The notes beneath the pieces were generated by a model. It made no database searches. It saw nothing but the letters and a program-made list of their open reading frames with translations, and was not told the DNA's origin. From a virus: a stretch of DNA of 21,006 nt. The stretch covers positions 1-21,006 of the IMG/VR virus record IMGVR_UViG_3300042549_005146, one strand, 5' to 3'. This document shows positions 8,700 to 21,006 of the stretch, piece after piece (position 1 is the first letter of the stretch; every line of letters starts with the position of its first letter). The position numbers and the translations under genes were made by a program.

Positions 8700-8727
8700 G
8701 GGTGAAAAAGGTGATACCCCTGTTATT
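8700..8727 (+). repeat. GGGTGAAAAA hairpin repeat, copy 9
   Basis: GGGTGAAAAAGGTGAT then ACCCCTGTTATT. Its 3' end abuts the TTGACA of the next promoter. Confidence 0.78.
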
Positions 8728-8755
8728 TGACATAAGGTTCTATGAGTGCTAACCT
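8727..8755 (+). promoter_or_regulatory. promoter TTGACA-17-TAACCT
   Basis: TTGACA (8727-8732), 17 bases, TAACCT (8750-8755). The same unusual -10 is used at 14165-14193; both promoters touch a GGGTGAAAAA repeat. Confidence 0.6.
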
Positions 8756-8820
8756 AGATTTATGGTGCTAATCACCTACACCGAAAAAGTGTAAAATAAT
8801 AAAGAAAGCAGGTATAACAA

Positions 8821-9030: not shown

Positions 9031-9051
9031 ACTGGCTACATCTGTTATACT
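9023..9051 (+). promoter_or_regulatory. promoter TTGACT-17-TATACT
   Basis: TTGACT (9023-9028), 17 bases, TATACT (9046-9051) with extended TGT. Confidence 0.82.
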
Positions 9052-9089
9052 GATAGTGTAAGAGTGTAAGACGAAAGGACAATTACGAA

Positions 9090-9377
9090 ATGGGAATACA
9101 AAATCTATTAGGAATCCTAGATTCCGATTTATCATTTGAAGACAAGATAAGACTTCACTTGACTAGCAATGTCTATCCTCCTGTTCCAAAAGAAATGCTA
9201 CAAGCGTGCGTGCTTGCTGTTTACTTATGTTCAGATGGAGAGGCAAACACCGATGTATCTTTACCTGATGGGGCGACCTATCAAGGAAGAGACTCTGCCC
9301 CGGCTGGAAAGATAGTGGAGAACTTCCACCTCAACCTGTTTGTGAACTACGGAGACGAAGGGGATGAAGATGGCTAG
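9090..9377 (+). CDS. hypothetical phage protein (95 aa)
   Basis: ATG 9090 follows GACGAAAGGACAATTACGAA. The N-terminal part is helical (MGIQNLLGILDSDLSFEDKI, then LHLTSNVYPPVPKEMLQACV); the second half has DVSLPDGATYQGRDSAPAGK and an acidic end DEGDEDG. The LTSNVYPPVP element recalls other actinophage hypothetical proteins. Function unknown. Its end overlaps the next start by 14 bases. Confidence 0.82.
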   Translation: MGIQNLLGILDSDLSFEDKIRLHLTSNVYPPVPKEMLQACVLAVYLCSDGEANTDVSLPDGATYQGRDSAPAGKIVENFHLNLFVNYGDEGDEDG

Positions 9378-9555
9378 TGTTTACCGATACGAAATCTATG
9401 GGCTAGAGCCAGTAAAGGTTGTAGACATTGTCGCTAACTCAAAGAGGCACGCAGAGAAGAAACTTGAAAATGTGTTTCCAGAATACACAGGCAGAAAACT
9501 TGAAGGCTGGAAATTCATAGAAGAGGAAAACATTGACGACTACTTAGTCGCCTAA
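9364..9555 (+). CDS. small hypothetical protein (63 aa)
   Basis: ATG 9364 (or Met at 9370) lies inside the end of the previous gene after GAAGGGG. The protein reads MASVYRYEIYGLEPVKVVDI, then ANSKRHAEKKLENVFPEY and a C-terminal LEGWKFIEEENIDDYLVA. The strand, AxSxxxAxKKxxxxF helix, strand layout is like that of the 1339 protein. Function unknown. Confidence 0.75.
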   Translation: MKMASVYRYEIYGLEPVKVVDIVANSKRHAEKKLENVFPEYTGRKLEGWKFIEEENIDDYLVA

Positions 9556-9588
9556 CAAAAAACACAAAGACGAAAGACAAGGAAAGTT

Positions 9589-9873
9589 ATGGAATTCAAA
9601 GTAGCGTTTGGAGATGTAGTAAGAGAGTTGCGAACGGAAAGACACCTAACGCTTAGAGCGTTGAGTAAGAAAGCCAATGTTGCTCTGGGATACATTTCCG
9701 AAGTCGAGCGTGGTCATAAAGACGCGTCTTCGGCAGTAATGAAATCTCTGGCTCGAGGTCTAGATGTTCCTATCCACCAAATCGTAATCGAAACTGGTTA
9801 TCGTATGGGCGTTTGGGAAAGTGAAGACCTGACACTCGAAGAGATGGTAATTGACAAACCGATTTTAGTTTGA
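9589..9873 (+). CDS. ClgR-like XRE-family transcription regulator
   Basis: A 94-aa DNA-binding protein with an XRE helix-turn-helix at residues 8-66: GDVVRELRTERHLTLRALSK, then KANVALGYISEVERGHKDAS. The TLR-x-LS, VxLGYxSEVERGxKxASS pattern is the signature of actinobacterial ClgR, the activator of clp protease genes and, in corynebacteria, of some DNA-repair genes. It is at the short end for ClgR and has its own C-terminal tail (LTLEEMVIDKPILV). ATG 9589 follows ACAAGGAAAGTT. It is followed by two small membrane proteins. The regulon is unknown. It may mimic or compete with host ClgR, or be the phage's own switch protein. Confidence 0.88.
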   Translation: MEFKVAFGDVVRELRTERHLTLRALSKKANVALGYISEVERGHKDASSAVMKSLARGLDVPIHQIVIETGYRMGVWESEDLTLEEMVIDKPILV

Positions 9874-9899
9874 TACTCTGGGATTGAAGGGAAGTATAA

Positions 9900-10109
9900 A
9901 TGAAGTATGTGTTTAGAAGAGCGTTAGTTGGAATCATAATAATTCCTGTGGTCGCTATGGTCTGGGTTCTGTTTAGTGCCATTCTTGGAATGGTATTTGC
10001 TTTACCGATGTCAAGTGTCAATCGAGTTTGGAATGACGGATTGTGGCTAGGATTGCTAGCAACAATTATGTTCGCCATCACCCCCCTATTGAACGGAAAG
10101 AGACGATGA
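9900..10109 (+). CDS. small membrane protein, two TM segments (69 aa)
   Basis: ATG 9900 follows GGGATTGAAGGGAAGTATAA. Two hydrophobic segments: VGIIIIPVVAMVWVLFSAIL, continuing to GMVFALP, and LWLGLLATIMFAITPLL near the C-terminus, with a basic end GKRR. A short loop lies between them. Its stop overlaps the next start (ATGA). It could be a holin-like or inner-membrane accessory protein, but a holin role is not supported by position next to a clear endolysin. Confidence 0.8.
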   Translation: MKYVFRRALVGIIIIPVVAMVWVLFSAILGMVFALPMSSVNRVWNDGLWLGLLATIMFAITPLLNGKRR

Positions 10110-10276
10110 AGTATTTTCTAATGGGGCTTGGTGCTTATTCAGTAGGAATGGGCTGGTTCTTTATGGAACAGAATGACTCTGCTGTTTCGTGGGCTATCGG
10201 TTCATTTTTAGGACTGATACTAATCTTCGGTGCTATCGTATTGGCAATTTCCGATTTATTCAAAGAAAGAAAGTAG
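10106..10276 (+). CDS. small membrane protein, two TM segments (56 aa)
   Basis: ATG 10106 overlaps the previous stop by four bases (ATGA) after GGAAAGAGACG. The frame is open back to 10043, but that region belongs to the previous gene. Hydrophobic segments: YFLMGLGAYSVGMGWFFM and AIGSFLGLILIFGAIVLAIS, then a basic KERK end. With 9900-10109 it forms a membrane pair, possibly a two-component membrane factor. Confidence 0.78.
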   Translation: MKYFLMGLGAYSVGMGWFFMEQNDSAVSWAIGSFLGLILIFGAIVLAISDLFKERK

Positions 10277-10283
10277 GAAACAA

Positions 10284-10526
10284 ATGGAAACAAAAATGTA
10301 TCAACCTTTTATAGATGAGATTCAGTCTCTAGGTTCTATTCAAGCAACCTTGGCTATTGTCGAGACAACTAAGGCACTCCAACAGTTGCTAAGCATCATT
10401 GAGGACAATGCCGAACTAATTGCTACAAACTCTAGGGCTGTTGAACTGGCTAACCAAAACATCCAAGGCTTGAACGAAGTTTTCGAGGCTTTGAACGCCA
10501 GACTCGATGAGTTGAATAAGGCTTAG
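10284..10526 (+). CDS. coiled-coil hypothetical protein (80 aa)
   Basis: ATG 10284 follows AAGTAGGAAACAA. The protein is METKMYQPFIDEIQSLGSIQ, then ATLAIVETTKALQQLLSIIE, then ELANQNIQGLNEVFEALNAR: almost all helix with heptad-like hydrophobic spacing. It probably forms a coiled coil. Last gene of the ClgR-like unit, followed by a terminator. No family recognised. Confidence 0.78.
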   Translation: METKMYQPFIDEIQSLGSIQATLAIVETTKALQQLLSIIEDNAELIATNSRAVELANQNIQGLNEVFEALNARLDELNKA

Positions 10527-10547
10527 GTCTTAGAACACCCAGGAAAG

Positions 10548-10573
10548 TCAGCCTCCGGGCTGGCTTTTTTTTT
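10548..10573 (+). terminator. terminator of the 9090-10526 region
   Basis: GTCAGCC and GGCTGGC pair around a short TCCG-type loop, followed by nine T. Confidence 0.88.
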
Positions 10574-10590
10574 ATTATTCGGGAAAGTTC

Positions 10591-10618
10591 GGGTGAAAAA
10601 GGTCATACCCCCTGTAAT
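10591..10618 (+). repeat. GGGTGAAAAA hairpin repeat, copy 10
   Basis: GGGTGAAAAAGGTCAT then ACCCCCTGTAATT, between terminator and promoter; closest to copy 9. Confidence 0.78.
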
Positions 10619-10639
10619 TTGCGACATACGGAAATGGTA

Positions 10640-10667
10640 TTGACATTTGCTGGGTATCTGTTATACT
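10640..10667 (+). promoter_or_regulatory. promoter TTGACA-16-TATACT
   Basis: TTGACA (10640-10645), 16 bases, TATACT (10662-10667) with extended TGT. Confidence 0.85.
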
Positions 10668-10687
10668 GGAGATGGAAGGAGAGGTAA

Positions 10688-11122
10688 ATGGTCGAGCAAG
10701 TAATGAGGTCTGGGATGAAGGTCTATCAGTCCGAGCCACAACCGATAAGAATCAAGTTGTTTGATGCCGAGCAGGTTCGATTCAAGTTTGTCTTTGATTC
10801 TGAAGAGGGGCGAGACGAGTTCGTTCAGTCAGCCCCGAAATTCGCACAAGCATTATTCTTCAAAGAGAATGCTTATGGTAGCAATGTCTGGGAGATTGAA
10901 GGCGAAAAAGTTGGATGGTTCGGTATGAAACTTTCAGAGGACAGTTTCAAGTGGAGCGTTATAGTCAAGGTAAATGTGAACTGGAAAGATGCCAGAGGCG
11001 AAAAGCCAAACGATTCTTCATTGAGCGTTTACCGAAACAAAGGTGAATACCAGAATGCTTTGAAACTTGAAAAATGGTTGAGCCAGTTTTCATCTATCGC
11101 AATAAAGAAAGAGGAGAAATAA
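10688..11122 (+). CDS. hypothetical phage protein (144 aa)
   Basis: ATG 10688 follows TGGAAGGAGAGGTAA. The product looks beta-rich with few cysteines: IRIKLFDAEQVRFKFVFDSE, then KFAQALFFKENAYGSNVWEI, then WSVIVKVNVNWKDARGEKPN, then a helical C-terminus LKLEKWLSQFSSIAIKKEEK. I do not recognise it. Coupled by TAATG overlap to the DUF6011 gene downstream, so the two may act together. Confidence 0.85.
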   Translation: MVEQVMRSGMKVYQSEPQPIRIKLFDAEQVRFKFVFDSEEGRDEFVQSAPKFAQALFFKENAYGSNVWEIEGEKVGWFGMKLSEDSFKWSVIVKVNVNWKDARGEKPNDSSLSVYRNKGEYQNALKLEKWLSQFSSIAIKKEEK

Positions 11123-11556
11123 TGAATAAAGCAAGCGAGAGACAAATCGGATTCATTGAGAGTCTATTGACAGAGCGTATCTGGGATAAGGCTGTTGATG
11201 TAGCAAGTCTGTCAAGTAAAGAGGCGAGCGACCTAATCAGCAATTTACTAAAAGCACCGACAAGCATTGTAAACAAGATTGGAATTTACCAAACTGAAGA
11301 TGGCAACATCTACCGAGTCCAACCAAGTAAGAGTTATCGAGACAGACTTTACGCTAAGAAATTAGTTTTCTCTGGAGGATGGGAGTATGAGTCTGGAGCA
11401 ATCTATCGCCTAAAGGAAAGTCAGCGAATGACTTTGGAAGAGGCTAAAGCGTTCGGGATGGCTACTGGTCTTTGTTGTGTCTGTGGAGTTTTCCTAACAG
11501 ACCCTAAGAGTGTCGAGCAGGGTATCGGTCCAGTCTGTATAAAAAACTTTAGATAA
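11122..11556 (+). CDS. DUF6011-type zinc-binding protein
   Basis: ATG 11122 overlaps the previous stop (TAATG) after AAGAGGAGAAA. The N-terminus (SERQIGFIESLLTERIWDKA, then SSKEASDLISNLL) is the same module as in the 4691 protein. A beta-rich middle follows (GNIYRVQPSKS, then LYAKKLVFSGGWEY). The last 27 residues are CCVCGVFLTDPKSVEQGIGP then VC, the hallmark of DUF6011: C-x-x-CG-x-x-LTDPxSVxxGIGPxC, a zinc site. DUF6011 proteins are frequent in actinophages; their role is unknown, probably nucleic acid binding. Confidence 0.88.
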   Translation: MNKASERQIGFIESLLTERIWDKAVDVASLSSKEASDLISNLLKAPTSIVNKIGIYQTEDGNIYRVQPSKSYRDRLYAKKLVFSGGWEYESGAIYRLKESQRMTLEEAKAFGMATGLCCVCGVFLTDPKSVEQGIGPVCIKNFR

Positions 11557-11560
11557 ATAC

Positions 11561-11588
11561 TTGCTATTTAGTATTTGTCTGTTATACT
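11561..11588 (+). promoter_or_regulatory. promoter TTGCTA-16-TATACT
   Basis: TTGCTA (11561-11566), 16 bases, TATACT (11583-11588) with extended TGT. Same -35 word as at 3150. Confidence 0.78.
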
Positions 11589-11606
11589 GGAACTGAAGGA
11601 GAAGTT

Positions 11607-12506
11607 ATGTTTGATGATTTGAAAACCCCTGTCGAGATTGACACTAAACTTGCCGAATTCTATTACGAGCAAGATGGATTGACATTCGACATTACAAATC
11701 TTCGTAGCCGAATTGAAGGCTATGCCGAGCGTGAATACTACGCGGGCAGTAAGGCTAAGGCAGAGGCTAAACTTGAAGAGTTGCTAGAGCGATACTCGAT
11801 TGTGTTCGCTAGCGTTCAGATACTAAATAAAAAATACACAGGCTGGTCTCGTGCCTTCCTAGTGAAAAATTCAAACGGACACATCCACGCCTCGATGAAT
11901 TGTGGAACTTGTTTTCCAACTACTCAATACATCTGGCTTACTGATTTATCTGGACAAGACAGATTAGAGATTGCTGGTCTTGCTGGAGAGAAGGCTTGCT
12001 CTGTTTGTTATCCCGATGCTCCTAGTGAATACTTTTTACGGAAGTGCCAACTTGAAGACCCTTCAGTAGTGAAGGCTCGAGAAGAGCGTGCGATTGCTAA
12101 AGCCGAGCGTGAGGCAAAAAGAATTGCTGTCGGTATCTCAAATCCAGATGGTTCGGAGTTGCGTGTCGCATCTTGGTCTGGGTCTCACAAAGAGACACTA
12201 AAGACAGAGAGAACTGCTCGCATCTGGGCTAAAGACCAAATGGTTTGGGTTGCCTCTTCTAGTTCTAAAAAAGATTACAGACTAGAAAAAAGAGCAGAGA
12301 CAATTGTTGAAATCGAAAAAGTTTTAGTTGCGATTGCGAATAAAACAGGACAGGATTTAGAATTAGTCCGTGCCGAGATTTCAAACAAAGCAAATAAAGA
12401 CATTGTGAAAATTCAGCGTGAGCAGAGAGAGTGGGCTAAGTTGAATCCACAATACGATAATCCAGAGTTCAGAGAACAATACGAAATAATAAACGGAGGT
12501 AAGTAA
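11607..12506 (+). CDS. actinophage conserved protein with HxxxxxC-C and CxxC zinc-like motif (299 aa)
   Basis: ATG 11607 follows AACTGAAGGAGAAGTT. The N-terminal 70 residues form a charged helix. A central block (about 75-140) has GWSRAFLVKNSNGHIHASMN, then CGTCFPTTQYIWLTDLSG, then GEKACSVCYPDAPSEYF. The GWSR-F-LV, HIH-S-MxC-TC, C-VC-PxAP pattern recurs in many actinophages and looks like a zinc-binding domain (HxxxxxCxxC, then CxxC). A helix-rich C-terminal half follows, with KAREERAIAKAEREAKRIAV and VEIEKVLVAIANKTGQDLEL. Function unknown. The stop overlaps the next start (TAATG). Confidence 0.85.
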   Translation: MFDDLKTPVEIDTKLAEFYYEQDGLTFDITNLRSRIEGYAEREYYAGSKAKAEAKLEELLERYSIVFASVQILNKKYTGWSRAFLVKNSNGHIHASMNCGTCFPTTQYIWLTDLSGQDRLEIAGLAGEKACSVCYPDAPSEYFLRKCQLEDPSVVKAREERAIAKAEREAKRIAVGISNPDGSELRVASWSGSHKETLKTERTARIWAKDQMVWVASSSSKKDYRLEKRAETIVEIEKVLVAIANKTGQDLELVRAEISNKANKDIVKIQREQREWAKLNPQYDNPEFREQYEIINGGK

Positions 12507-12712
12507 TGAGTTATGACATTGGTGGAGGATACGATGGCTGGAAAACAGCAACGCCCTGGGATGATGAGCGAGAGATAACTGTTTGGTTCGAGTGTGGTGA
12601 GTGTGAAGTCGAAAACGAAACTGAAGTTATGGTCGGAGGTCGCTCTGGCGATGTCGATGTTGAATGTGCCGAGTGTGGCAAGAATAACAATGTAGGTTTT
12701 GGCGATGACTAA
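12506..12712 (+). CDS. small acidic zinc-ribbon protein (68 aa)
   Basis: ATG 12506 overlaps the previous stop after AACGGAGGTAAG. The sequence has WFECGECEVENETEVMVGGR, then VDVECAECGKNNNVGFG: two C-x-x-C knuckles about 20 residues apart, a zinc-ribbon arrangement. Strongly acidic otherwise. Function unknown; ribbon proteins of this size often modify RNA polymerase or bind nucleic acid. Confidence 0.82.
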   Translation: MSYDIGGGYDGWKTATPWDDEREITVWFECGECEVENETEVMVGGRSGDVDVECAECGKNNNVGFGDD

Positions 12713-13037
12713 AATTCCTAATCACAAAATAGAAAAAGAAATCTTGGCACTTAGACCATTCGAAAACTACAACGGAACTATTGTTGCCACTATCGAAAAT
12801 GGGTTCTATGCTATTCGCCATTGGGAAACACAAATCCTGATGTATGACACACTCAACTCGGAGATTATCTATCTAACCCCCGGAGTAATCTCTCAAACAA
12901 CAGGGAGACTGGTTGGGCGTATCCTTCGGAGTCTGCCTCGTAAAGCGATAGAGAACTATCTACTGGCTAGCAACCTAACTGGCTACGAGCGAAGTCGAAT
13001 CGTTCGGATGGCTGGGCTGGAAGTTCACTTACCATAG
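12705..13037 (+). CDS. hypothetical phage protein (110 aa)
   Basis: ATG 12705 overlaps the previous gene by eight bases; a TTG two codons upstream is possible but less likely. Sequence: KIPNHKIEKEILALRPFENY, then GTIVATIENGFYAIRHWETQ, then SEIIYLTPGVISQTTGRLVG and RILRSLPRKAIENYLLASNL. A small beta domain is followed by a basic helical half. No known function. Last gene of the 11607-13037 unit; no clear terminator follows, only minus-strand PafBC-like sites and a repeat. Confidence 0.82.
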   Translation: MTKIPNHKIEKEILALRPFENYNGTIVATIENGFYAIRHWETQILMYDTLNSEIIYLTPGVISQTTGRLVGRILRSLPRKAIENYLLASNLTGYERSRIVRMAGLEVHLP

Positions 13038-13078
13038 ACCACCGACATTACAAAAACTGGTAGCACAAACCACCGACA
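13026..13078 (-). promoter_or_regulatory. two tandem minus-strand PafBC-like sites
   Basis: Minus-strand reading: TGTCGGTG, GTTTGTGC, TACCAG (13078 to 13057) and TGTCGGTG, GTCTATGG, TAAGTG (13047 to 13026), 31 bases apart, the same spacing as the pair at 7573-7625. The first -10 overlaps the end of the 12705 gene. Confidence 0.5.
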
Positions 13079-13080
13079 TT

Positions 13081-13107
13081 ACAGGGGGCGGCCATTATTT
13101 CACCCCC
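13081..13107 (-). repeat. GGGTGAAAAA hairpin repeat, copy 11 (reverse, variant)
   Basis: ACAGGGGGCGGCC then ATTATTTCACCCCC. The A5 loop is altered to AAATAAT. It stands in the same relation to two minus-strand PafBC-like sites as copy 8. Confidence 0.7.
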
Positions 13108-13125
13108 ATCTTATGTAATTATTTC

Positions 13126-13134
13126 TGCTACAAT
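13126..13134 (+). promoter_or_regulatory. extended -10 promoter TGCTACAAT
   Basis: TGC-TACAAT about 27 bases before ATG 13162; no good -35 is visible at 16-18 bases. Confidence 0.5.
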
Positions 13135-13161
13135 AAATACAACTAGAGAAAGAGTTATGCT

Positions 13162-13425
13162 ATGAAAAAATCTATCGAAGGATTGACTGATTCCGAGATT
13201 GTTGATTTCCTAAACCAATACAACAAAGGCGTAGAGAACAAGATTCTCGATTTCGACAACGAGTATGACTTTACGGATGAGGCTCTGTTCAACATAGTTG
13301 TAGCAGTCGAGTATCTTATGGTGTCTGGGCTAAATGAGAACGCAGACCAACTATTTTCAGAACTCTATAAGAGGTCTCAAATTGAACTGGTAAATCGCCT
13401 AGGGTCATTGACTGAACTAGAATAG
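13162..13425 (+). CDS. acidic helical protein (87 aa)
   Basis: ATG 13162 follows AGAGAAAGAGTTATGCT. All-helical acidic protein: KSIEGLTDSEIVDFLNQYNK, then FTDEALFNIVVAVEYLMVSG, then NADQLFSELYKRSQIELVNR. It resembles many small unannotated phage proteins; no family recognised. The next promoter overlaps its end. Confidence 0.8.
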   Translation: MKKSIEGLTDSEIVDFLNQYNKGVENKILDFDNEYDFTDEALFNIVVAVEYLMVSGLNENADQLFSELYKRSQIELVNRLGSLTELE

Positions 13426-13436
13426 TCTGCTATACT
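13408..13436 (+). promoter_or_regulatory. promoter TTGACT-17-TATACT
   Basis: TTGACT (13408-13413), 17 bases, TATACT (13431-13436) with extended TGC. Confidence 0.82.
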
Positions 13437-13487
13437 GGAGTAGTGGAGATAGTTCCACTCATACAACTACGGAAAGATGGGAACAAA

Positions 13488-13718
13488 ATGAAAACAATGA
13501 TTGGTCTTACTAAAGAACAACTGGCGTTCGCTGTATCTCTAGCAGATTACGCTACTGCTAAGTTGAAGATACAACAGAAAGAAAGCCACTCTGGGGTCGA
13601 TAGGTTGATACTTGGAGACTGGATTATTTCAGCCGAAGAGTTGGCTAACGAATTTAGGTCTTATGTCGAGGTCGAGTCTGTATCCGATGACTCTGACTTA
13701 GTTAGACCTGAAGCCTAA
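13488..13718 (+). CDS. hypothetical helical protein (76 aa)
   Basis: ATG 13488 (MKTMIGLTKEQLAFAVSLAD, then YATAKLKIQQKESHSG) is preferred over the upstream in-frame ATG at 13443, which lies next to the -10 element. Ribosome site GGAAAGATGGGAACAAA. Helical first half, acidic C-terminus (YVEVESVSDDSDLVRPEA). Function unknown. Confidence 0.75.
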   Translation: MKTMIGLTKEQLAFAVSLADYATAKLKIQQKESHSGVDRLILGDWIISAEELANEFRSYVEVESVSDDSDLVRPEA

Positions 13719-13734
13719 GCACTAAAACTACCTG

Positions 13735-13766
13735 CTTATACTGGCTTGACAAAAGTCAGTATAGGT
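13735..13766. promoter_or_regulatory. inverted repeat TATACTG ... CAGTATA over a promoter
   Basis: TATACTG and CAGTATA form a dyad that includes TTGACA of the promoter at 13746. It could be an operator for a dimeric repressor; HTH proteins at 9589 and 15401 are candidates. Confidence 0.4.
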
Positions 13767-13774
13767 AGTATTAT
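13746..13774 (+). promoter_or_regulatory. promoter TTGACA-17-TATTAT
   Basis: TTGACA (13746-13751), 17 bases, TATTAT (13769-13774). Confidence 0.75.
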
Positions 13775-13796
13775 TGAAGAGACGAAAGGAATAAAA

Positions 13797-13961
13797 ATGG
13801 TCGCATTATGGGCAGTTATACCTGCGATGGTCTGTATGTTCATTGCTGGGCGTAAAAGCAAAAGGAAAATCAAGTTTGTGAACAACACGGACTACGGAGT
13901 GGACATAGTAGTCTCTCCTAACCAATCAGTCGTAGTAATTCGAGGGATTGAGCCTAAGTGA
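13797..13961 (+). CDS. small membrane-anchored protein (54 aa)
   Basis: ATG 13797 follows GACGAAAGGAATAAAA. One N-terminal TM segment (MVALWAVIPAMVCMFIAG) is followed by a basic stop-transfer RKSKRKIK and a small beta-like domain (VDIVVSPNQSVVVIRGIEPK). Upstream in-frame ATG 13746 is inside the promoter. Overlaps the next GTG start by four bases. Confidence 0.75.
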   Translation: MVALWAVIPAMVCMFIAGRKSKRKIKFVNNTDYGVDIVVSPNQSVVVIRGIEPK

Positions 13962-14116
13962 AACTTTTCTACCAATCGCTTTACTGGGCTGTTAGAAGGC
14001 TCGCCTTCGGTCTTTACGGACTATCAAAGAGACTGGACTGGCTATGCTACAAACTTTATGACAAGGCAGAGTTCAAAGGCTCTGTCGGTCGCAGACAAAA
14101 AGGCAAAATCTTCTAA
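13958..14116 (+). CDS. small basic protein, GTG start (52 aa)
   Basis: GTG 13958 overlaps the previous TGA (GTGA), the coupled arrangement used elsewhere here; GAGGGATTGAG upstream is the ribosome site. Protein: KLFYQSLYWAVRRLAFGLYG, then LSKRLDWLCYKLYDKAEFKG, then GRRQKGKIF. An amphipathic, aromatic-rich N-terminal helix and a basic tail. No family recognised. Coding is supported by the overlap and absence of internal stops over 52 codons. Confidence 0.65.
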   Translation: MKLFYQSLYWAVRRLAFGLYGLSKRLDWLCYKLYDKAEFKGSVGRRQKGKIF

Positions 14117-14135
14117 CAGAATCGTAAACTTTTTT

Positions 14136-14162
14136 ACAGGGGTGCTGCATTTTTCACCCCTG
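14136..14162 (-). repeat. GGGTGAAAAA hairpin repeat, copy 12 (reverse)
   Basis: CAGGGGTG and CACCCCTG form a perfect 8-bp stem, the longest in the family, around a loop with five T. It abuts TTGACT of the next promoter. Confidence 0.78.
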
Positions 14163-14164
14163 AT

Positions 14165-14193
14165 TTGACTTATCGGTCAATAACAGATAACCT
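14165..14193 (+). promoter_or_regulatory. promoter TTGACT-17-TAACCT
   Basis: TTGACT (14165-14170), 17 bases, TAACCT (14188-14193); same type as 8727-8755. It lies inside an upstream extension of the deacetylase frame, arguing for the start at 14222. Confidence 0.6.
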
Positions 14194-14221
14194 AAATAAC
14201 AACAAGAAAGAAAGAAAACAA

Positions 14222-15205
14222 ATGACAAACCAAAAAGACAAATTACACATAGCCTACGGAGATGATTATCTCAAGTGGCTACTGGGCAATGGGGATGGAA
14301 ACCATCCTACAAAGCCAATCAGAGCCAAGATTGCTACGGATTACCTAGTTTCCGAACTGGGTGCTGACAATGTGGTCGTAATCGAGCCTGAAGTCGATGC
14401 TGGAGATAGAGAACGCTTGGAGAGTATTCACTCACCTGCTTATGTATCAGAGGTGCTGGACTTGGGTAGAACTTATGACTGGACTGGCGACAAACCTGAA
14501 ATGGGGCAAGTTGCTCTTCAGATGTTCGCTGGAACTGCTCGCCTAGTAGAGAAGATGATTGCTGGAGAGATTCTTGTAGGGTTCAACCCTCAAGGTGCTA
14601 AGCATCACGCTCAATACGGATGGTCGGAGGGATTCTGCGTATTCAATGACCACGCTTGGGCTGCCTTGGAGTTTCAGAAGGCTGGATTGAGACCTGTATA
14701 CATTGACTGGGATGTGAACGCTGGAGATGGTGTTCAGAACATTCTAGAGGATTCTGGTATTCCAACCTTCTCGATTCACGGACACGGAATCTATCCAACA
14801 CATTCTGACACTTGGGTTCGAGGACAGAATGAGCAGAACTATCTTTATCAGAACACGGATAAGCAATTCTATAACTACGCTCTTCAACAGGGCGAAGGTG
14901 ATGATGCTCTAGCGTGGGCTATTGACGACATTGCCGATAAGTTGGAAGACTACAAGCCTGATGTGATTCTGCTAGCAACTGGAGCAGATGGACACGAAGG
15001 CGAGACTTGGGGTCTGAAGTATACCTATGATGGTTATCACTATGCCTCAAAGGTAGTTGCTGAACTGGCTAACAAGTTCACTGGTGGTCGAGTGCTTATC
15101 GGTGGTGCTGGTGGCTATCAAGCAACCACACACACTCCTCGTATCTGGGCTAATGTGGTGTCTGACATTTACAACGGAGTAGTAAAGAAAGAAGTAATCA
15201 ACTAA
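14222..15205 (+). CDS. AcuC/HDAC-superfamily deacetylase-like protein with H-to-N change at a zinc ligand
   Basis: 327 aa, the usual size of bacterial histone deacetylase-like amidohydrolases, which remove acetyl groups from lysine side chains or polyamines. Visible motifs: the HH dyad at 128-129 (PQGAKHHAQYGWSEGFCVFN), zinc site D162-x-D164-x-N166 (YIDWDVNAGDGVQ), GADGH with Asp256, and GGAGGY with Tyr299. The family motif is DxDxHHGDG; here the zinc-binding His is Asn and the next His is Ala. Other catalytic residues are kept, so activity may be altered rather than lost. First gene of a six-gene rightward block ending in terminase. The substrate could be an acetylated host protein or polyamine. 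The ribosome site is weak (AACAAGAAAGAAAG). Confidence 0.9.
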   Translation: MTNQKDKLHIAYGDDYLKWLLGNGDGNHPTKPIRAKIATDYLVSELGADNVVVIEPEVDAGDRERLESIHSPAYVSEVLDLGRTYDWTGDKPEMGQVALQMFAGTARLVEKMIAGEILVGFNPQGAKHHAQYGWSEGFCVFNDHAWAALEFQKAGLRPVYIDWDVNAGDGVQNILEDSGIPTFSIHGHGIYPTHSDTWVRGQNEQNYLYQNTDKQFYNYALQQGEGDDALAWAIDDIADKLEDYKPDVILLATGADGHEGETWGLKYTYDGYHYASKVVAELANKFTGGRVLIGGAGGYQATTHTPRIWANVVSDIYNGVVKKEVIN

Positions 15206-15408
15206 TGGAAATAATTATTTTCGGATTGCTAGGAGTCCTAGCAATAGTTGGGATTATCTTTGTGCTGTCTTTTATTGACAGTAAGTTAGATGATTCAAAT
15301 GAAGTTTGGGGAGACACATTTCCCGAAGACAAAAAACTAGGTCCACTACTGGGCGTAGTAAAACCAAATAACAAAAACGATAAAGACAAGGAAAATACAA
15401 ATGAATAA
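15205..15408 (+). CDS. small membrane protein (67 aa)
   Basis: ATG 15205 overlaps the deacetylase stop (TAATG). One N-terminal TM segment (IIIFGLLGVLAIVGIIFVLS), then an acidic stretch and a hydrophilic tail rich in Asn, Lys and Asp. Orientation and role are unknown. Overlaps the next start by eight bases. Confidence 0.78.
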   Translation: MEIIIFGLLGVLAIVGIIFVLSFIDSKLDDSNEVWGDTFPEDKKLGPLLGVVKPNNKNDKDKENTNE

Positions 15409-15640
15409 CAAAGACAATCAGCAATCAGAAATGACTTGGAACTGGTTTGTTGCTCGCTACCAAAAAATGGGCTACCCTTCACTAAATCAGTTTGCTAACG
15501 CTCACGGATTACAGAAGTCGAGCCTAAGTCGCTATTTCCACACACAGAGACAGATTCCTTCTGGAACTATGTCAATCTTGTGCGAATCACTGAAGGTGAG
15601 TCCTAATGAAATGATGAAGGCTCTAGGAGTGTGGAAGTAA
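15401..15640 (+). CDS. XRE/Cro-like helix-turn-helix protein (79 aa)
   Basis: ATG 15401 follows AAAGACAAGGAAAATACAA. A compact helix-turn-helix: WFVARYQKMGYPSLNQFANA, then HGLQKSSLSRYFHTQRQIPS, then MSILCESLKVSPNEMMKALG. The SLNQFANAHGLQKSSLSRYF stretch is the DNA-reading unit. It is a candidate repressor or late-gene switch; its position between deacetylase and terminase suggests regulation of this block. Overlap with the next gene (TAATG). Confidence 0.85.
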   Translation: MNNKDNQQSEMTWNWFVARYQKMGYPSLNQFANAHGLQKSSLSRYFHTQRQIPSGTMSILCESLKVSPNEMMKALGVWK

Positions 15641-15810
15641 TGCCTAGTTGGATTATTAGTCTGCGTAATGTCGTATGGTCTTCGGTCTTATCAGTAGTCC
15701 TATCTGGCATCGCTGTATTAGTTGCTCTATCTAACCCTCAAGCAATCGCTCTGGTTATTGCTCTGGGTTTGTCTGCTGTTGTGCTTGCTCTACTGGCTCA
15801 AAAAGTCTAG
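15640..15810 (+). CDS. small membrane protein, two TM segments (56 aa)
   Basis: ATG 15640 overlaps the previous stop by TAATG. The product is nearly all hydrophobic: VVWSSVLSVVLSGIAVLVAL, a short SNPQ turn, then AIALVIALGLSAVVLALLAQ. A helical hairpin. Holin is one possibility by size and topology, but no endolysin lies next to it. Confidence 0.75.
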   Translation: MPSWIISLRNVVWSSVLSVVLSGIAVLVALSNPQAIALVIALGLSAVVLALLAQKV

Positions 15811-15818
15811 GGAGCATA

Positions 15819-16379
15819 ATGAGACAAGTAAAGAAACTAATTCACCTTCCTGCCGAAGTAAGAAAGAAATTTCTTGTGCTAGATGATGTGGATGATAGAA
15901 ACCAATACATAAAGAATCTTCGTAATGCTGGCTGGACACTGACTAGCATCTCGGATGCTTGTGGAATGACTCGCGAAAGAGTTAGACAGATTGTTTTGGA
16001 GTCTGACTCTCTAGCCGAGATTGAATTGAATGATTCTTTTATTATTCCACCTCCACCCTTCTATCCTGAAAAAGTAAAGAAAGAGTATGTCGAGCCTTCA
16101 CCTGAAACGCTGGCTCGCTTGCTTGAACTACAACCCTTGGCTCAACAGGTTCGCTCTAACGCTGTTAGGTTCAGAGCAGAGGCTGAAGAGTATGTTCGGT
16201 TGCTAAATCACGCTCACGCTGTTGAGGGAGTGCCACTCTATCGCTTAGGTAAAAGATTAGGGTTATCTCACTCTGCTATTCGTTTCCGTCTTGCTCGCTA
16301 TGGATACAAGACAAGCGAAAACGGATTGAGCAAGGTCTACAAACCTATCTCCGAGAAGAATAGGGTATCCATCAAGTAG
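15819..16379 (+). CDS. two-HTH DNA-binding protein, candidate small terminase subunit
   Basis: 186 aa starting at ATG 15819 after GTCTAGGGAGCATA. First HTH around 34-60: NAGWTLTSISDACGMTRERV, then RQIV, sigma-region-4-like. A Pro-rich linker (FIIPPPPFYPEKVKK) follows, then a helix LARLLELQPLAQQVRSNAVR and a second HTH near 140-165: GVPLYRLGKRLGLSHSAIRF, RLARYGYK. Small terminases bind packaging sites and lie directly before the large subunit, as here (13 bases between). The product of 19175-19684 has the same architecture. Small terminase is the best guess; a transcription factor is the alternative. Confidence 0.82.
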   Translation: MRQVKKLIHLPAEVRKKFLVLDDVDDRNQYIKNLRNAGWTLTSISDACGMTRERVRQIVLESDSLAEIELNDSFIIPPPPFYPEKVKKEYVEPSPETLARLLELQPLAQQVRSNAVRFRAEAEEYVRLLNHAHAVEGVPLYRLGKRLGLSHSAIRFRLARYGYKTSENGLSKVYKPISEKNRVSIK

Positions 16380-16380
16380 A

Positions 16381-16386
16381 TACAAT
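16381..16386 (+). promoter_or_regulatory. possible -10 for leaderless terminase mRNA
   Basis: TACAAT ends six bases before ATG 16393, and the ATG has no ribosome site. The -35 region shows no match, so this is tentative. Confidence 0.35.
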
Positions 16387-16392
16387 AGCCTT

Positions 16393-17784
16393 ATGGCTAA
16401 ATCTATTATGGAACAAATCGCTCTCTTGCCTGATGACGAGAGGGCGATTATCCTATCTGGATTCGATGCTGATGCTCTTATGTGGGATTGGTCTGTATGG
16501 GGTAGACCTGAACAGCAATCACCTCAAGGAGACTGGGCAATCTGGATGTATCTCGCTGGGCGTGGTGCTGGTAAGACAAGGGCAGCAGCCGAGTGGGTTC
16601 GAGAAGAGGCTAAGCACACAACTACTGGGCAGAGGCGTTTCGCTCTCGTAGCAAGAACAGCAGCCGATGTGCGAGATGTTATTGTCGAAGGTGAATCTGG
16701 GATTATGAATGTGTCGCCTCCAAGCGAGAGACCATTGTATGAGCCATCGAAGAGAAGACTGACCTGGCCAAATGGCAACACTGCTACTTGCTTTACAGCC
16801 GATGAGCCTGACTCTTTGCGTGGTCCACAATTCACACACGCTTGGGGTGATGAGGTCGCTGCTTGGAGGCAGACACCCGATGCTGCGGGTATGACTGCGT
16901 TCGACAACTTGAGAGTTGGAACTCGTTTAGGTGCTAACCCTAAGATTATGATTACTACTACACCTAAGAGAGTGCCACTACTTTATAAGTTGCTAGATGA
17001 GGCTAAGACTACTGGTCGAGTTGTAATCAGTAGAGGTTCAACGATGGACAACTCTGGAAACTTATCTAACGCTTATCTTGATGCGATTACTGGAGTTTAC
17101 GCTGGAACTAGACTTGCTCAACAAGAACTTTACGGTGAGATGTTGGATTCGGTTGAAGGTGCTTTGTGGGTTGATGAACTTATCGAGCAACATAGACAAT
17201 CAGCGTTCCCGATGAACACACCTCTTCGTATCATTGGGGTAGACCCTTCGGTAGCCGAAAACCCTAGAGATGAATGTGGGATTGTTGTTGTCTCTTCAAG
17301 TGGTGAGCGTGATTTGTATAAGCGTAATGCTTGGGTGCTTGAAGATGCTAGCGTGTTAGGTTCACCTGATGTCTGGGCTAATCGAGTAGTTGCGATGGCT
17401 CGCAAATGGGGTTGTCCTGTTGTTGCTGAAGTAAACCAAGGTGGAGCGATGGTTCGTAATGCTATCAACACCATTGACCCTAGTATCAAGGTGCTAGAGG
17501 TTCATAGCAAATACGGAAAGGCTCTAAGAGCCGAGCCAATTACTTTGGCTTATGAGCAAGGTCGAGTCCATCACATTGGTTATCTTGCCGATTTAGAATC
17601 TCAAATGGTCTCGTGGGTTCCGGGTGAGGGTAAGTCTCCCGATAGAGTCGATGCTTTAGTCCACGCTCTTACTGCTCTACTAATCAAGCCACCTGCTGGA
17701 TTTACTGGAGGAAAAATTACTGCTAAGTCGATGGGGTCTAGAAGATTACCTGACTCAAAGAGTAGCCTGTTTCGTATTCGTTAG
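16393..17784 (+). CDS. terL: terminase large subunit
   Basis: The DNA-packaging motor, with ATPase and nuclease domains, 463 aa. Walker A is GRGAGKT (56-62); Walker B with catalytic Glu is HAWGDE (149-154); the coupling motif is ITTTPKR (187-193). The nuclease domain has IIGVDPS with Asp284, PVVAEVNQGG with Glu345, and SPDRVDALVHAL with Asp420, the three-acid RNase H-like site. Length is normal for siphovirus TerL. It acts with the portal, whose gene begins at 20366, and a small subunit. The gene starts without a ribosome site; a TACAAT six bases upstream would fit a leaderless message. Its stop overlaps the convergent phosphatase gene by four bases, with no terminator between. Confidence 0.96.
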   Translation: MAKSIMEQIALLPDDERAIILSGFDADALMWDWSVWGRPEQQSPQGDWAIWMYLAGRGAGKTRAAAEWVREEAKHTTTGQRRFALVARTAADVRDVIVEGESGIMNVSPPSERPLYEPSKRRLTWPNGNTATCFTADEPDSLRGPQFTHAWGDEVAAWRQTPDAAGMTAFDNLRVGTRLGANPKIMITTTPKRVPLLYKLLDEAKTTGRVVISRGSTMDNSGNLSNAYLDAITGVYAGTRLAQQELYGEMLDSVEGALWVDELIEQHRQSAFPMNTPLRIIGVDPSVAENPRDECGIVVVSSSGERDLYKRNAWVLEDASVLGSPDVWANRVVAMARKWGCPVVAEVNQGGAMVRNAINTIDPSIKVLEVHSKYGKALRAEPITLAYEQGRVHHIGYLADLESQMVSWVPGEGKSPDRVDALVHALTALLIKPPAGFTGGKITAKSMGSRRLPDSKSSLFRIR

Positions 17785-18308
17785 TCTCTCCAAAACTCAA
17801 CTGGTTGATTGACTAACCAATCTTCAAATGCTTTGTTGAATAAAACATAATCGTGTCTGGTCTCTCGCATTAGGTCGATTGCCTCTCTTGCTGAATAGCC
17901 ATCTCTAATCAACACTAGGGCAGTAATGATACCTGACCTGTTTAGTCCTGCTTGACAACGAATGAGAATCTTCTCGCCTCTCTTCCAATCAGAGTGAGCC
18001 ATCTCAACTATTCTTCTAAACTCTTCAACTGGGAAGTCTGTGTCTGGTGAATCGTAATAGCCATACCGATACTCTTTGACTTGCCAATCAACTGGATTAG
18101 CGAAGGCATAGAATGTGTAGACACTATCGAAGTCTCTAACGGTAATCGCTGGTAAGTCGAACTGATGTGAACGGTCTCCAACTCTGTCATTGTCTGAAGT
18201 TCCACCTTGCCATAGGTTAGGAAGAATCTCTGACCATAGAGGTAGGTCTATCTTGTCCCCTGCGAATGGGTCTTTGGCTACGGACTCTCTGTAATCTGGT
18301 TCGTTCAT
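17781..18308 (-). CDS. dual-specificity/tyrosine phosphatase-like protein
   Basis: 175 aa on the minus strand. The catalytic P-loop is IRCQAGLNRSGIITA: Cys118 and Arg124 of the CX5R signature. The usual preceding His is Arg. The family removes phosphate from Tyr, Ser or Thr; YDSPDTDFP (85-93) may hold the general acid Asp. An N-terminal LWSEILPNLWQGGTSD matches the start of DSP domains. After the loop, ALVLIRDGYSAREAIDLMRE resembles homologues common in actinophages. It is convergent with terminase and has its own strong promoter. ATG 18308 lacks an obvious strong ribosome site; GAGAGACTACCGA lies upstream. Probably modifies host signalling or metabolism; target unknown. Confidence 0.9.
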   Translation of the reverse strand: MNEPDYRESVAKDPFAGDKIDLPLWSEILPNLWQGGTSDNDRVGDRSHQFDLPAITVRDFDSVYTFYAFANPVDWQVKEYRYGYYDSPDTDFPVEEFRRIVEMAHSDWKRGEKILIRCQAGLNRSGIITALVLIRDGYSAREAIDLMRETRHDYVLFNKAFEDWLVNQPVEFWRD

Positions 18309-18348
18309 TCGGTAGTCTCTCTGTCTGTTATGTATGTATTACATTACT

Positions 18349-18377
18349 ATACTACCAATGTTTACCGATAATGTCAA
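18349..18377 (-). promoter_or_regulatory. promoter of the phosphatase gene, TTGACA-17-TAGTAT
   Basis: On the minus strand: TTGACA (18377-18372), 17 bases, TAGTAT (18354-18349), about 40 bases before ATG 18308. A TGTCGGTGG word (18395-18387) lies just upstream but is not at PafBC spacing from this -10. Confidence 0.82.
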
Positions 18378-18659
18378 GTCTACGGACCACCGACACTTAG
18401 CAAATTTTATGGATGTTATCAATCACTGGGCTAAGCAATGTCTGACAATCACTAACGCTTAGCATCGACATTAGTGAAGGGGACATAAGTATTTATTAGT
18501 GTGGTCCGTTATGTAATAACTTATCGAATGCTAACGCTTCCACTCAACTTATGATGTCTGACATTATACAAACTTAGATGAGTAGATGAGAGATGGTTAT
18601 TTGATTGACTTGCTATGTAATAGTTATGTTGCTCTGCTCTGCTTCAGATGTGTATCTCT

Positions 18660-18720
18660 ATTTGTGCTTATGTCTATGTGTGTTATGTGTATGTGTGTTA
18701 TGTGTATGTGTATCTCTAAT
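18660..18720. repeat. low-complexity TATGTGTGTTATG stretch
   Basis: Alternating GTGTATGTG and GTTATGTGTATG units make up about 60 bases of purine/pyrimidine-alternating sequence. Easily melted or slippage-prone; no coding frame. Confidence 0.7.
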
Positions 18721-18750
18721 GTTCAAAACATTTTTTATGTCAAGTAAGTT

Positions 18751-18771
18751 CGTTCGGAAACAAACGATTTT
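18751..18771 (+). repeat. isolated copy of the 21-bp iteron
   Basis: CGTTCGGAAACAAACGATTTT matches the tandem units at CGTTCG, then CAAACGAT, with the same internal TCGTT/AACGA dyad. Confidence 0.6.
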
Positions 18772-18912
18772 TATTACTTAGTGTGTGGCTCTGTGATTAG
18801 CAAATGATTCCTAGACATAGAAATAGAAATAAAAAATAAATGTATGTGTGATTGCTCTTTTATTTTGATTGCGTGGCTGTGGATGTTGAGGAGTGAGATG
18901 TCTGATGTAAAT

Positions 18913-18996
18913 CGTTCGTATCCAAACGATAGTCGTTAGGTAGCAAACAATAGTCATTCGTATCCAAACAATAATCATTCGCATCCAAACGATTGG
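18913..18996 (+). repeat. four tandem 21-bp repeats (iteron-like)
   Basis: Units start at 18913, 18934, 18955 and 18976. Consensus CRTTCGTATCCAAACRATARt; unit 2 is the most diverged (CGTTAGGTAGCAAACAATAGT). Units hold a short dyad (CGTT ... AACG). A 21-bp period places each site on the same DNA face, as for binding arrays of replication initiators, terminases or repressors. Confidence 0.85.
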
Positions 18997-19158
18997 TAGC
19001 AGGGCAAGTCAGATGAAAATCAGGAAACGATTTGAAAAGCAGCAAAATACTACGACTTCCAACTCATAGGCCAAAGGCAAATATCGTTAATGTATCATTC
19101 TTAGTCGTCAGTACAGAAGACTCCAGACGCCCCTATGGATATAACCTTCGGACATTGG

Positions 19159-19167
19159 TGCTAAAGT
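19159..19167 (+). promoter_or_regulatory. extended -10 TGCTAAAGT, possible leaderless start
   Basis: TGC-TAAAGT ends seven bases before ATG 19175, with no ribosome site before that ATG. Confidence 0.4.
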
Positions 19168-19174
19168 GTACTTT

Positions 19175-19684
19175 ATGGAAGACCGTCGACGTTATGCAAG
19201 AGAAGAAGACCTCCCCCAAAGCGAAATAGACCTTCTACGTTCGTTTGGGAAGGCAAAAAAGGCTCTCTACTGTCGAGCAAGGCAACTTTTCGAGGCTGGA
19301 TGGACACTTCAGGCCATCGGAAACGCATTTTCTACCCCTGTTGGGCGTTCCACAGTCCAGTATTGGGTCAAAATGGGGGATTTGAGCCACAAAACTGACC
19401 AAAAACTCCCTTTTCCACCTAATTTCACTCCAAAACGTGGCTATCAACGTAAAAAGCCTCTATCTCCCGGCATTTCCGATGAAAATACCCAACGTCTACG
19501 CTATCTAGCCCCCCTAGCACGTAATTATCGCTCTGGAATGGGTTTAGCCTCGCTTCAAGGCTCTGCAAACACCGAATTAACCGAACTAGCAACAAATTTA
19601 CACTTAGAAGGCGTCTCCATTGCCGAATTAGCAAGAGCGTCGGGCGTAACGTTCCGTGCGATGGCTCGAAGATTAGGAAAATAA
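19175..19684 (+). CDS. second two-HTH DNA-binding protein, paralogue of the 15819 product
   Basis: 169 aa from ATG 19175; GTG 19166 would add three residues. Architecture matches the 15819 protein: first HTH (ARQLFEAGWTLQAIGNAFST, then RSTVQYWVK), a Pro/Lys-rich linker (LPFPPNFTPKRGYQRKKPLS), helix QRLRYLAPLARNYRSG (compare ARLLELQPLAQQVRSN) and a second HTH (LHLEGVSIAELARASGVTFR, then AMARRLGK). Sequence identity looks low outside these blocks. It opens the late module before portal, where small terminases or late regulators are found. It is also the first gene in the ACGT-containing sequence, so it may be the small terminase belonging to a different lineage of late genes. Confidence 0.83.
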   Translation: MEDRRRYAREEDLPQSEIDLLRSFGKAKKALYCRARQLFEAGWTLQAIGNAFSTPVGRSTVQYWVKMGDLSHKTDQKLPFPPNFTPKRGYQRKKPLSPGISDENTQRLRYLAPLARNYRSGMGLASLQGSANTELTELATNLHLEGVSIAELARASGVTFRAMARRLGK

Positions 19685-19685
19685 C

Positions 19686-20045
19686 GTGCAAATAACATTA
19701 GACCTCTTTCCTTGCAACGTTGTTGCTGCTCCAGCAGGTTTTGTCGACAGTATTGAAGACCTCAAGTCACGTCCACCACATGAAGGTGCAACTTATCTCG
19801 AAGTTTGCCGTGTTTTGGTTGTCGACGACGTTCTGGTTATCGCAATGGACGCTCCTGAAGGTGCCCAAATAATTTTCCAAGAAAAAATAGCGGAGTTATA
19901 TAATGGAACTAAGCCAGAGTTTCTAACCAAGGTAGTTACTGTCCAAGGAAAGATGCTAGTTTTCTATAAAGACAACGGATGTGGATGTTCTTCACGTCTA
20001 CGTTCTTGGAATCCGTTCAAAACTCTAATGTCTACCAAAGGATAA
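19686..20045 (+). CDS. hypothetical protein, GTG start (119 aa)
   Basis: GTG 19686 lies one base after the previous stop in the context AGGAAAATAACGTGCAA. Sequence: VQITLDLFPCNVVAAPAGFV, then LKSRPPHEGATYLEVCRVLV, then VDDVLVIAMDAPEGAQIIFQ, then CGCSSRLRSWNPFKTLM near the end. Mostly beta with a C-terminal CGCSSR cluster. No family recognised. The same TAACGTGCAA junction begins the next gene. Confidence 0.8.
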   Translation: MQITLDLFPCNVVAAPAGFVDSIEDLKSRPPHEGATYLEVCRVLVVDDVLVIAMDAPEGAQIIFQEKIAELYNGTKPEFLTKVVTVQGKMLVFYKDNGCGCSSRLRSWNPFKTLMSTKG

Positions 20046-20046
20046 C

Positions 20047-20349
20047 GTGCAAGCACTATTTGATATTTCCCCATTCCATTTCATCATTCTTGCGTTAGCG
20101 ACGTACAGACTCTCACGTCTACTCGTTATCGACAACATCTTTGAGTGGCTACGTAATTTAGTTTGGAAACGTTTTCCACCCTCAACGGCGTTTGGATATT
20201 TCTTCACTTGTATTTGGTGTACGTCGGTTTGGACAGCATCAGCCGTTGCGATTTGCTATACAATAGTTCCTATAGCAACTGTGGTCGTTGCTTCGATTTT
20301 TGCATTATCCGCAGTCGCAGGATTAATTTCTATGCGACTAGATAACTGA
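20047..20349 (+). CDS. DUF1360-like membrane protein, GTG start (100 aa)
   Basis: GTG 20047 follows CAAAGGATAAC. The protein begins VQALFDISPFHFIILALATY, then RLSRLLVIDNIFEWLRNLVW. FGYFFTCIWCTSVWTASAVA carries the C-x-x-C of the DUF1360 family (ATYRLxRLxxxDxxxxxxR, then GYxxxCxWCxSxW). It ends in a hydrophobic segment VPIATVVVASIFALSAVAGL. DUF1360 proteins are common in phages and Gram-positive genomes; function unknown, membrane location likely. Placed directly before portal, as in many actinophages. Confidence 0.87.
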   Translation: MQALFDISPFHFIILALATYRLSRLLVIDNIFEWLRNLVWKRFPPSTAFGYFFTCIWCTSVWTASAVAICYTIVPIATVVVASIFALSAVAGLISMRLDN

Positions 20350-20365
20350 TTGACAGGAGTCCCTT

Positions 20366-21006
20366 TTGGGCATCTTTAACAAGAGAGAGCAAGCACCAAG
20401 ACAGGTGGCCCCACCTTCTGGTCGCATCTCCGCTTCAGTTCCTAGAACCAACAACACTGGCTTACCAGCAAACTCAGTTTTCCTGAACGTCAAGCCTAAT
20501 AGTGCACCAGTAGCCCCTTACGATATCTCAAGACCACTTACCGCTGCTGCTACACAAATTAAAGTTGGCGATAGAGGAGAGGCCGACCAGTTTAAGGCTC
20601 GTCGTGCCGCTGCCTCTAGTAGTTGGCAGAGTGAAGCGTGGGAATACTACGACGCAATCGGTGAAATTAAATATGCTTTCAACCTTGTTGCTTCTGTTGT
20701 TTCTCGTGTACGTCTTTACGCTGCAGTTGTTTCAAACCCATCAGAAACTCCTTCTCCTATTCGTAACTCGGAGGGAGATGACGAACGTCTGGTTGAAGTT
20801 GCAGAACGTGCGTTGGCCAGACTTGACTCTGCTTACGGAGGTCAAGCAGGTTTGCTACGTGACGCTGCACTTAACTTGCAAGTTACAGGTGAGTGCTATC
20901 TAACTCAGATTCCTGCTCGCATTGGTTCTGGAATTCCAGAGTCTTGGGATATCCGTTCTATCGACGAACTAAACACAGATGGTAAGGGTAACTACGTTAT
21001 TTCTCC
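20366..21006 (+). CDS. portal protein, N-terminal part (runs off window)
   Basis: Starts at TTG 20366 after GACAGGAGTCCCTT; no ATG or GTG in this frame gives a better start. The first residues are MGIFNKREQAPRQVAPPSGR. A long linker leads to AWEYYDAIGEIKYAFNLVAS, then VVSRVRLYAAVV, then LLRDAALNLQVTGECYLTQI, then PESWDIRSIDEL. These blocks are those of actinophage portal proteins: the EIKYAFNLVAS helix, the GECYL strand and the PESWxxRSxDEL motif. The portal ring sits at one capsid vertex, and TerL docks on it to pump DNA. At least 213 codons are present; the C-terminal half lies beyond the window. Position after terminase supports the call. Confidence 0.9.
   Translation, partial: MGIFNKREQAPRQVAPPSGRISASVPRTNNTGLPANSVFLNVKPNSAPVAPYDISRPLTAAATQIKVGDRGEADQFKARRAAASSSWQSEAWEYYDAIGEIKYAFNLVASVVSRVRLYAAVVSNPSETPSPIRNSEGDDERLVEVAERALARLDSAYGGQAGLLRDAALNLQVTGECYLTQIPARIGSGIPESWDIRSIDELNTDGKGNYVIS

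Follow-up and report, generated by a model that had tools for sequence, protein, structure and literature searches.

Under-representation of restriction sites across whole genomes is a phage anti-restriction strategy, with site elimination in ∼7.5% of phage-site cases (Rusinov et al. 2018, PMC6286503), and the leading region of conjugative plasmids, which is the first DNA to enter, carries anti-defence genes (PMC11602122). In Escherichia phage T5, the left terminal repeat (10.2 kb) forms the first-step-transfer (FST) DNA; its annotation has it enter first and places a noncoding injection-stop region of 1 kb at the right (inner) end. The resistance of this phage to restriction is credited to functions of the early-injected region whose identity is not known (PMC8594841). 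Against these known cases, namely whole-genome avoidance and plasmid leading-region anti-defence, the avoidance by genome position described here is apparently new, and we found no report in the open-access literature of multi-site avoidance confined to a terminal segment of a phage.

The window analyzed here is a linear fragment of 21,006 bp, an IMG/VR virus record. Its terminase, HTH, and portal genes are homologous to those of the Microbacterium phages Zooman, Cece, and Pumpernickel, with which it also shares a motif found at the right end of their terminal repeats (DTRs).

Results

Four-base palindromes are missing from 19 kb of the window

The original prediction held that ACGT is absent up to 19189 and recurs 25 times thereafter, and exact counting agrees: all 25 copies lie at 19189-20994, with none before, where 69 would be expected from base composition and 30 from a second-order Markov model. 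GTAC likewise occurs five times, as had been read by eye, the earliest copy being at 19111 and none lying to the left of the switch, while TGCA, described as rare on the left and frequent on the right, has one left-hand copy (14146) and 12 from 19195 onward. CATG had correctly been seen as a late word, although its single copy in the window is at 19779 and not at ∼19786. Counts of all 4-mers on either side showed the effect to be wider than originally stated, with eight of the 16 four-base palindromes (ACGT, AGCT, ATAT, CATG, GATC, GCGC, GTAC, and TTAA) at zero in 1-19080, where their Markov expectations are 23-80 each and sum to ∼440. Four further palindromes are almost gone from this part (TGCA, 1 copy; GGCC, 3; CCGG, 5; and CGCG, 5), and TATA stands at one quarter of its expectation; CTAG (68), TCGA (98), and AATT (89) are spared. 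The switch is real, but its true edge lies at 19081-19111, ∼110 bp before the 19189 first given for it: ATAT returns at 19081, TTAA at 19087 (0 copies of either before 19081 and 8 of each after), and GTAC at 19111. The first of these positions sits within a gene-free region, just ahead of an HTH gene. AGCT, GATC, and GCGC are also missing to the right of the switch. The features of the window are as follows.

1-19055, no strand: site-free island, right-hand portion, with eight 4-base palindromes at zero; predicted part of a long DTR, whose left end would lie beyond the record
15819-16379, plus strand: HTH DNA-binding protein, homologue of Zooman gene 40 (tblastn, 49% identity; weak Sigma70_r4/HTH Pfam matches)
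16393-17784, plus strand: terminase large subunit, TerL (PF03237, E 1.6e-18; PF17289, E 1.6e-10; phrog_979)
17781-18308, minus strand: dual-specificity-phosphatase-like protein (PF00782, E 6e-11; phrog_10650)
18309-19165, no strand: gene-free region at the right edge of the island (from the ORF lists)
18750-18781: more diverged iteron copy (repeat search)
18912-18993, plus strand: iterons with 21-bp spacing, TCGTTCGTATCCAAACGATAG-like (repeat search, families D1 and D2)
19023-19115, plus strand: conserved terminus motif, GGAAACnATT...CTCnnnnGCCAAAGnCAAA...CGTTAATGTATC...CAGTACAG (alignment over 17 relatives)
19081-21006, no strand: normal DNA (unique region) begins; ACGT, GTAC, TGCA, ATAT, TTAA, and GGCC reappear
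19166-19684, plus strand: HTH DNA-binding protein, homologue of Zooman gene 61 (tblastn, 41% identity)
20047-20349, plus strand: DUF1360 protein (PF07098, E 1.6e-16; phrog_781)
20366-21006, plus strand: portal protein, truncated by the record end (phrog_776, E 1.1e-24)

Zooman gene 40 is the last gene in the DTR of that phage. The homologue of Zooman gene 61, which is annotated as a DNA binding protein, is the first gene beyond the island and has an alternative ATG start at 19175. An Rfam scan of the window and of pieces of two relatives (G004 and G014) gave zero matches. Also inside the island, at 14165-15205, is a histone-deacetylase-fold protein (PF00850, E 1.7e-43) that is kept in many relatives. 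Highly acidic, Ocr-like small proteins are encoded at 5544-5798, 5973-6224, and 6677-6961; they are barely conserved, and we make no claim for them.

The island recurs in related phages

Relatives of the window TerL include that of the Actinomycetia lake phage DSL-LC01 (77%), those of Microbacterium, Gordonia, and Arthrobacter phages, and hundreds of environmental contigs; a search for a host with TerL against bacterial genomes found no relative. Among the relatives' contigs examined (31-154 kb; designated by G numbers), the site-free zone is an island of 14-32 kb within large phage contigs, mostly of 80-154 kb, from many metagenomes. In G004 (48.6 kb), ACGT, GTAC, TGCA, ATAT, TTAA, and CATG are all absent from 20,864 to 48,148 (27.3 kb), giving 0 sites versus the 502 predicted from the density elsewhere, with normal density on each flank. 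Comparable islands are present in G009, G011, G013, G014, G015, G018, and G024; that of G003 is partial, with ACGT and TGCA present, that of G016 is weak, and those of G008 and G011 are purged of GTAC and ATAT in their left parts only. No island was found in G019, G020, GodonK, Zooman, or DSL-LC01. We also surveyed 69 loci in which the right-edge motif is flanked by enough sequence to its left and right: at least one palindrome is strongly depleted to the left of the cut in 52, three or more in 18, and none has a palindrome depleted on the right side only, counts that are not independent because many of these loci are related or overlapping. The conservation of the avoidance is directly observed.

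Several further features of these contigs were noted. The HTH proteins just inside (15819-16379) and just outside (19166-19684) the island of the window look like distant paralogues, and Zooman's outside HTH protein matches the inside HTH gene of G009; one of the two window proteins may act in end recognition. GATC and AGCT are absent from the entire 100-135 kb contigs of G008, G009, G011, and G016, which belong to the window clade, and G008 and G011 lack ACGT almost throughout, so that two layers of avoidance can be distinguished, one genome-wide and one restricted to the island. Further, a site-rich patch of 3.5-4 kb lies within the purged island of G013 (45.8-50.5 kb, oriented) and of G014 (46.3-50.5 kb, oriented); it extends into TerL, is without the usual HTH gene, and resembles recently gained DNA that is not yet purged.

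The missing words have the character of restriction sites

When the 136 strand-collapsed 4-mers were compared between the island and the rest, only the palindromes and a few asymmetric words differed strongly, the palindromes being outliers at log2 -4 to -9 where the standard deviation is ∼0.5. The depleted asymmetric words include CCTC in G004 (10 in the island, 89 in the rest), CCGC in G014 (4 and 327, respectively), and GAAGA in G009 (0, with at least 25 expected), and GTAAC, GCAGC, GAGAC, and GACGC are depleted as well. We take these to be type IIS-style sites, with CCTC being that of MnlI, CCGC of AciI, GAAGA of MboII, GACGC of HgaI, GCAGC of BbvI, and GAGAC of BsmAI. Gapped words, namely GANTC, GTNAC, ACNGT, GCNGC, and GGNCC, are purged in one or another lineage, GANTC in G013 falling from 321 copies in the rest to 0 in the island. 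Moreover, the avoided set varies by lineage: it includes AATT, GTAC, and ATAT in G008, TCGA and GANTC in G013, in which GATC and AGCT occur freely and often, and nine words in G024. Because the asymmetric type IIS-like sites are also lost, and because the avoided set is lineage-specific, the positional purge is restriction-site avoidance; of the causes originally proposed, a different restriction pressure on the two segments is the one that gains support. In a TerL codon alignment, the window has kept 0 of the 33-50 avoided sites of its unpurged relatives, compared with 19-26% of control 4-mers. In each comparison, roughly half or more of these losses are synonymous.

The right edge coincides with the predicted end of the terminal repeat

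In the island phages, a noncoding block of ∼94 bp is conserved at the edge. Exact DTRs are available for the isolates Zooman (17,079 bp), Cece (18,079 bp), Pumpernickel (19,963 bp), GodonK (7,581 bp), Sixama (1,702 bp), and Forza (1,605 bp). A profile of the motif, made from environmental relatives only and from no isolate, was searched against the whole genome of Zooman, the first 40 kb of Cece, and the first 28 kb of Pumpernickel. The best match spans the DTR end in each, namely (i) 17061-17138 in Zooman (E 0.0026; DTR end at 17079), (ii) 18063-18139 in Cece (E 1.5e-4; DTR end at 18079), and (iii) 19930-20023 in Pumpernickel (E 0.44; DTR end at 19963), and the cut falls at model positions 32-35 in all three alike. 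The motif predicts a terminase cut in the window at ∼19055/19056. In all 12 genomes checked, the first depleted site returns +26 to +46 bp past the predicted cut, and the few sites immediately ahead of the cut lie mostly within the conserved block itself. At both of its ends, moreover, the island has its genes in the same order as the DTR of Zooman, from the z5 homologue to HTH gene 40. Judged by this homology, the right edge of the island is the DTR end.

G024 separates the motif from its usual neighbors, for here it is found at 22,590 and precedes both the HTH gene (23,575) and TerL (27,477). The island terminates at the displaced motif, and TerL abounds in the words that the island lacks, so the boundary tracks the motif and not the genes. 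A terminus might also show itself in contig ends clustered at the boundary; inspection of the TerL-relative contigs by eye brought out no such pattern. Near the DTR-end motif, G015 (39-42 kb) and G018 (33-39 kb, oriented) have an excess of AGCT or GATC (79 AGCT in 3 kb or 64 GATC in 3 kb), possibly as tandem repeats beside the predicted genome end.

The left edge is less precise

Relative to the z5 homologue, the left edge varies between about -230 and +1010 bp; it falls 2-4 kb to the inside of the point equivalent to the left end of Zooman. In a long DTR of the Zooman, Cece, and Pumpernickel type, the left terminus would be expected just upstream of the TerS (z1) gene; the left-end sequence of the isolates is not clearly conserved in the island phages. 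This edge is fuzzy, the island starting near z5, and the island and the DTR may not coincide on the left. Were the left end upstream of TerS, as it is in Zooman, entry would have to begin with the right end. No copy of the right-edge motif core was found at the left edge. A candidate left-end motif, CCAAATCAC, occurs upstream of z1 or z5 in G004, G009, G013, and G014 only and is suggestive; ACATAACGG repeats, considered as a marker of both edges, proved weak and were set aside.

A conserved, pseudoknot-like element is present upstream of the TerS (z1) homologue in G004 (∼18.24-18.34 kb, oriented), as well as in G008, G009, G011, G014, G015, and G016. Within it, GGGaAGAGAC pairs with GTCTCTCCCC in the loop closed by a 15-bp stem (GGGTCAGGCGGGAAG/CTTCCCGTCTGACTC), and its stems seem to covary between lineages, with compensating changes noted by eye. 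The G004 and G014 pieces gave no Rfam match for this element, which may be a regulatory or packaging RNA.

Discussion

A probable purged entry segment

We judge it likely that the 19-kb stretch is the right-hand part of a DTR that enters the cell first and has been purged of sites by restriction-modification selection, with the remainder of the genome shielded by DTR products. The DTR would reach the host cytoplasm before any phage protein could protect the DNA, and would do so unprotected whichever end leads; many host restriction-modification systems would then select away their recognition sites, largely via synonymous changes. The remainder would enter later, shielded by repeat-encoded products, whether an anti-restriction protein or a plain inactivation of the host, and it is this shielding that could explain why only some sites (GATC, AGCT, and GCGC in the window lineage) are avoided there. 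The boundary would correspond to the terminase cut at ∼19055. While the avoidance is seen directly, three points are inferred: the possession of such a DTR by the window phage, its entry ahead of the other DNA, and the shielding of the remainder by an early product. By analogy with T5, the island is probably the first DNA into the host cell.

With regard to these predictions, metagenome assemblies collapse the terminal repeat, giving circular assemblies with an overlap of 103-119 bp. The isolates with known DTRs that we tested, namely Zooman, GodonK, and Sixama, show no purge of the DTR, and family scans of the island ORFs identified no anti-restriction gene and named no T5-type A1 or A2. Extended to the group, we hold it reasonably probable that widespread large phages related to those of Actinobacteria would have a restriction-naive DTR, purged for >15 specificities, and a site-bearing remainder, so that entry order and restriction history could be read from their genomes; the edge would fall within ∼30 bp of the terminase cut, and the purged words would amount to a record of the restriction systems that each lineage has encountered.

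Alternative explanations

The main alternative is that the DTR copy made by late packaging synthesis stays unmodified while the remainder is base-modified, which would make entry order irrelevant. It, too, would place the edges exactly at the DTR ends, and an N6/N4 DNA methyltransferase is encoded in G004, G008, G009, G011, G016, and G020, as are a dNMP kinase and PolA in G014. However, G014 (a closed 137-kb assembly), G013, G015, G018, and G024 have islands without the tested modification families, none giving a match to PF01555, PF00145, PF02086, or the thymidylate-synthase-like or adenylosuccinate-synthase families, and one methyltransferase could not cover >15 different specificities. We therefore consider this alternative improbable. 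Phage base modification as the shield of the remainder was a candidate that we rejected, the picture given by PurZ, thymidylate synthase, and three methyltransferase-type Pfam families being inconsistent. In this small sample, it is the large contigs free of the methyltransferase (among G013, G014, G015, G018, and G024) that have GATC and AGCT at normal density outside the island.

Less probable still is an island recently gained as a foreign segment from a strongly site-avoiding phage or plasmid, with the boundary as a recombination joint. Islands do accept foreign patches, as the site-rich DNA in G013 and G014 illustrates, and the G008 island resembles two blocks with differing avoided sets; yet the edge is kept across lineages with TerL just 77-84% identical to that of the window, and avoided sets have shifted inside the clade, ACGT and TGCA being present in the G003 island. 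Nucleotide identity to the nearer relatives is, moreover, similar to the left and right of the switch, which leaves the two segments of different history that were originally suggested without support, as does the position of the switch at a functional site, the predicted end of the terminal repeat.

Avoidance of palindromes or hairpins as structures in the DNA (near its ends, for instance) or a mutational bias would fit with palindromes being the most affected words, but we regard either as very unlikely, since the window clade spares CTAG, TCGA, and AATT and other lineages purge AATT or TCGA, the edges are sharp, and the purge reaches gapped and asymmetric recognition-type words; this specificity also disfavors the mutational bias raised in the original prediction. 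An artefact of assembly or binning that fused unrelated contigs, including the assembly join that had been proposed, might be suspected in a 21-kb linear fragment but is refuted as a join and has a negligible probability overall, as many independently assembled contigs from different metagenomes share its gene order and show this switch at an equivalent motif.

Implications and comparison with known systems

If the reading as a purged, first-entering DTR is true, sequence alone would reveal the unprotected entry segment of a phage, its DTR end, and the restriction systems of unknown hosts, and the site-free boundary could locate the physical genome ends of metagenomic phages. The protection of later-entering DNA in T5-like phages, a long-standing question, would become testable, and the islands direct attention to small early genes as a possible source of a broad anti-restriction factor.

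The predicted repeat would resemble the T5 FST DNA in being a long direct repeat, and the 0.86-kb gene-free region of the window, with its iterons, has a position comparable to that of the T5 injection-stop region; the parallel is an analogy, and no sequence relation is claimed. All 6 EcoRI sites of T5 lie beyond 30 kb, but the FST repeat shows no general purge, with only GTAC and AGCT about halved, whereas >15 specificities are removed over 14-32 kb in the island phages. The DTRs of Zooman, Cece, and Pumpernickel end upstream of TerL, whereas TerL of the window lies within the island, and the Zooman DTR, unlike this island, is not purged. Conjugative plasmids differ in entering single-stranded, and we found no report of complete site loss from their leading region. 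Finally, while Rusinov et al. (2018) relied on whole-genome counts, the avoidance found here concerns one functional segment and affects most 4-bp specificities at once.
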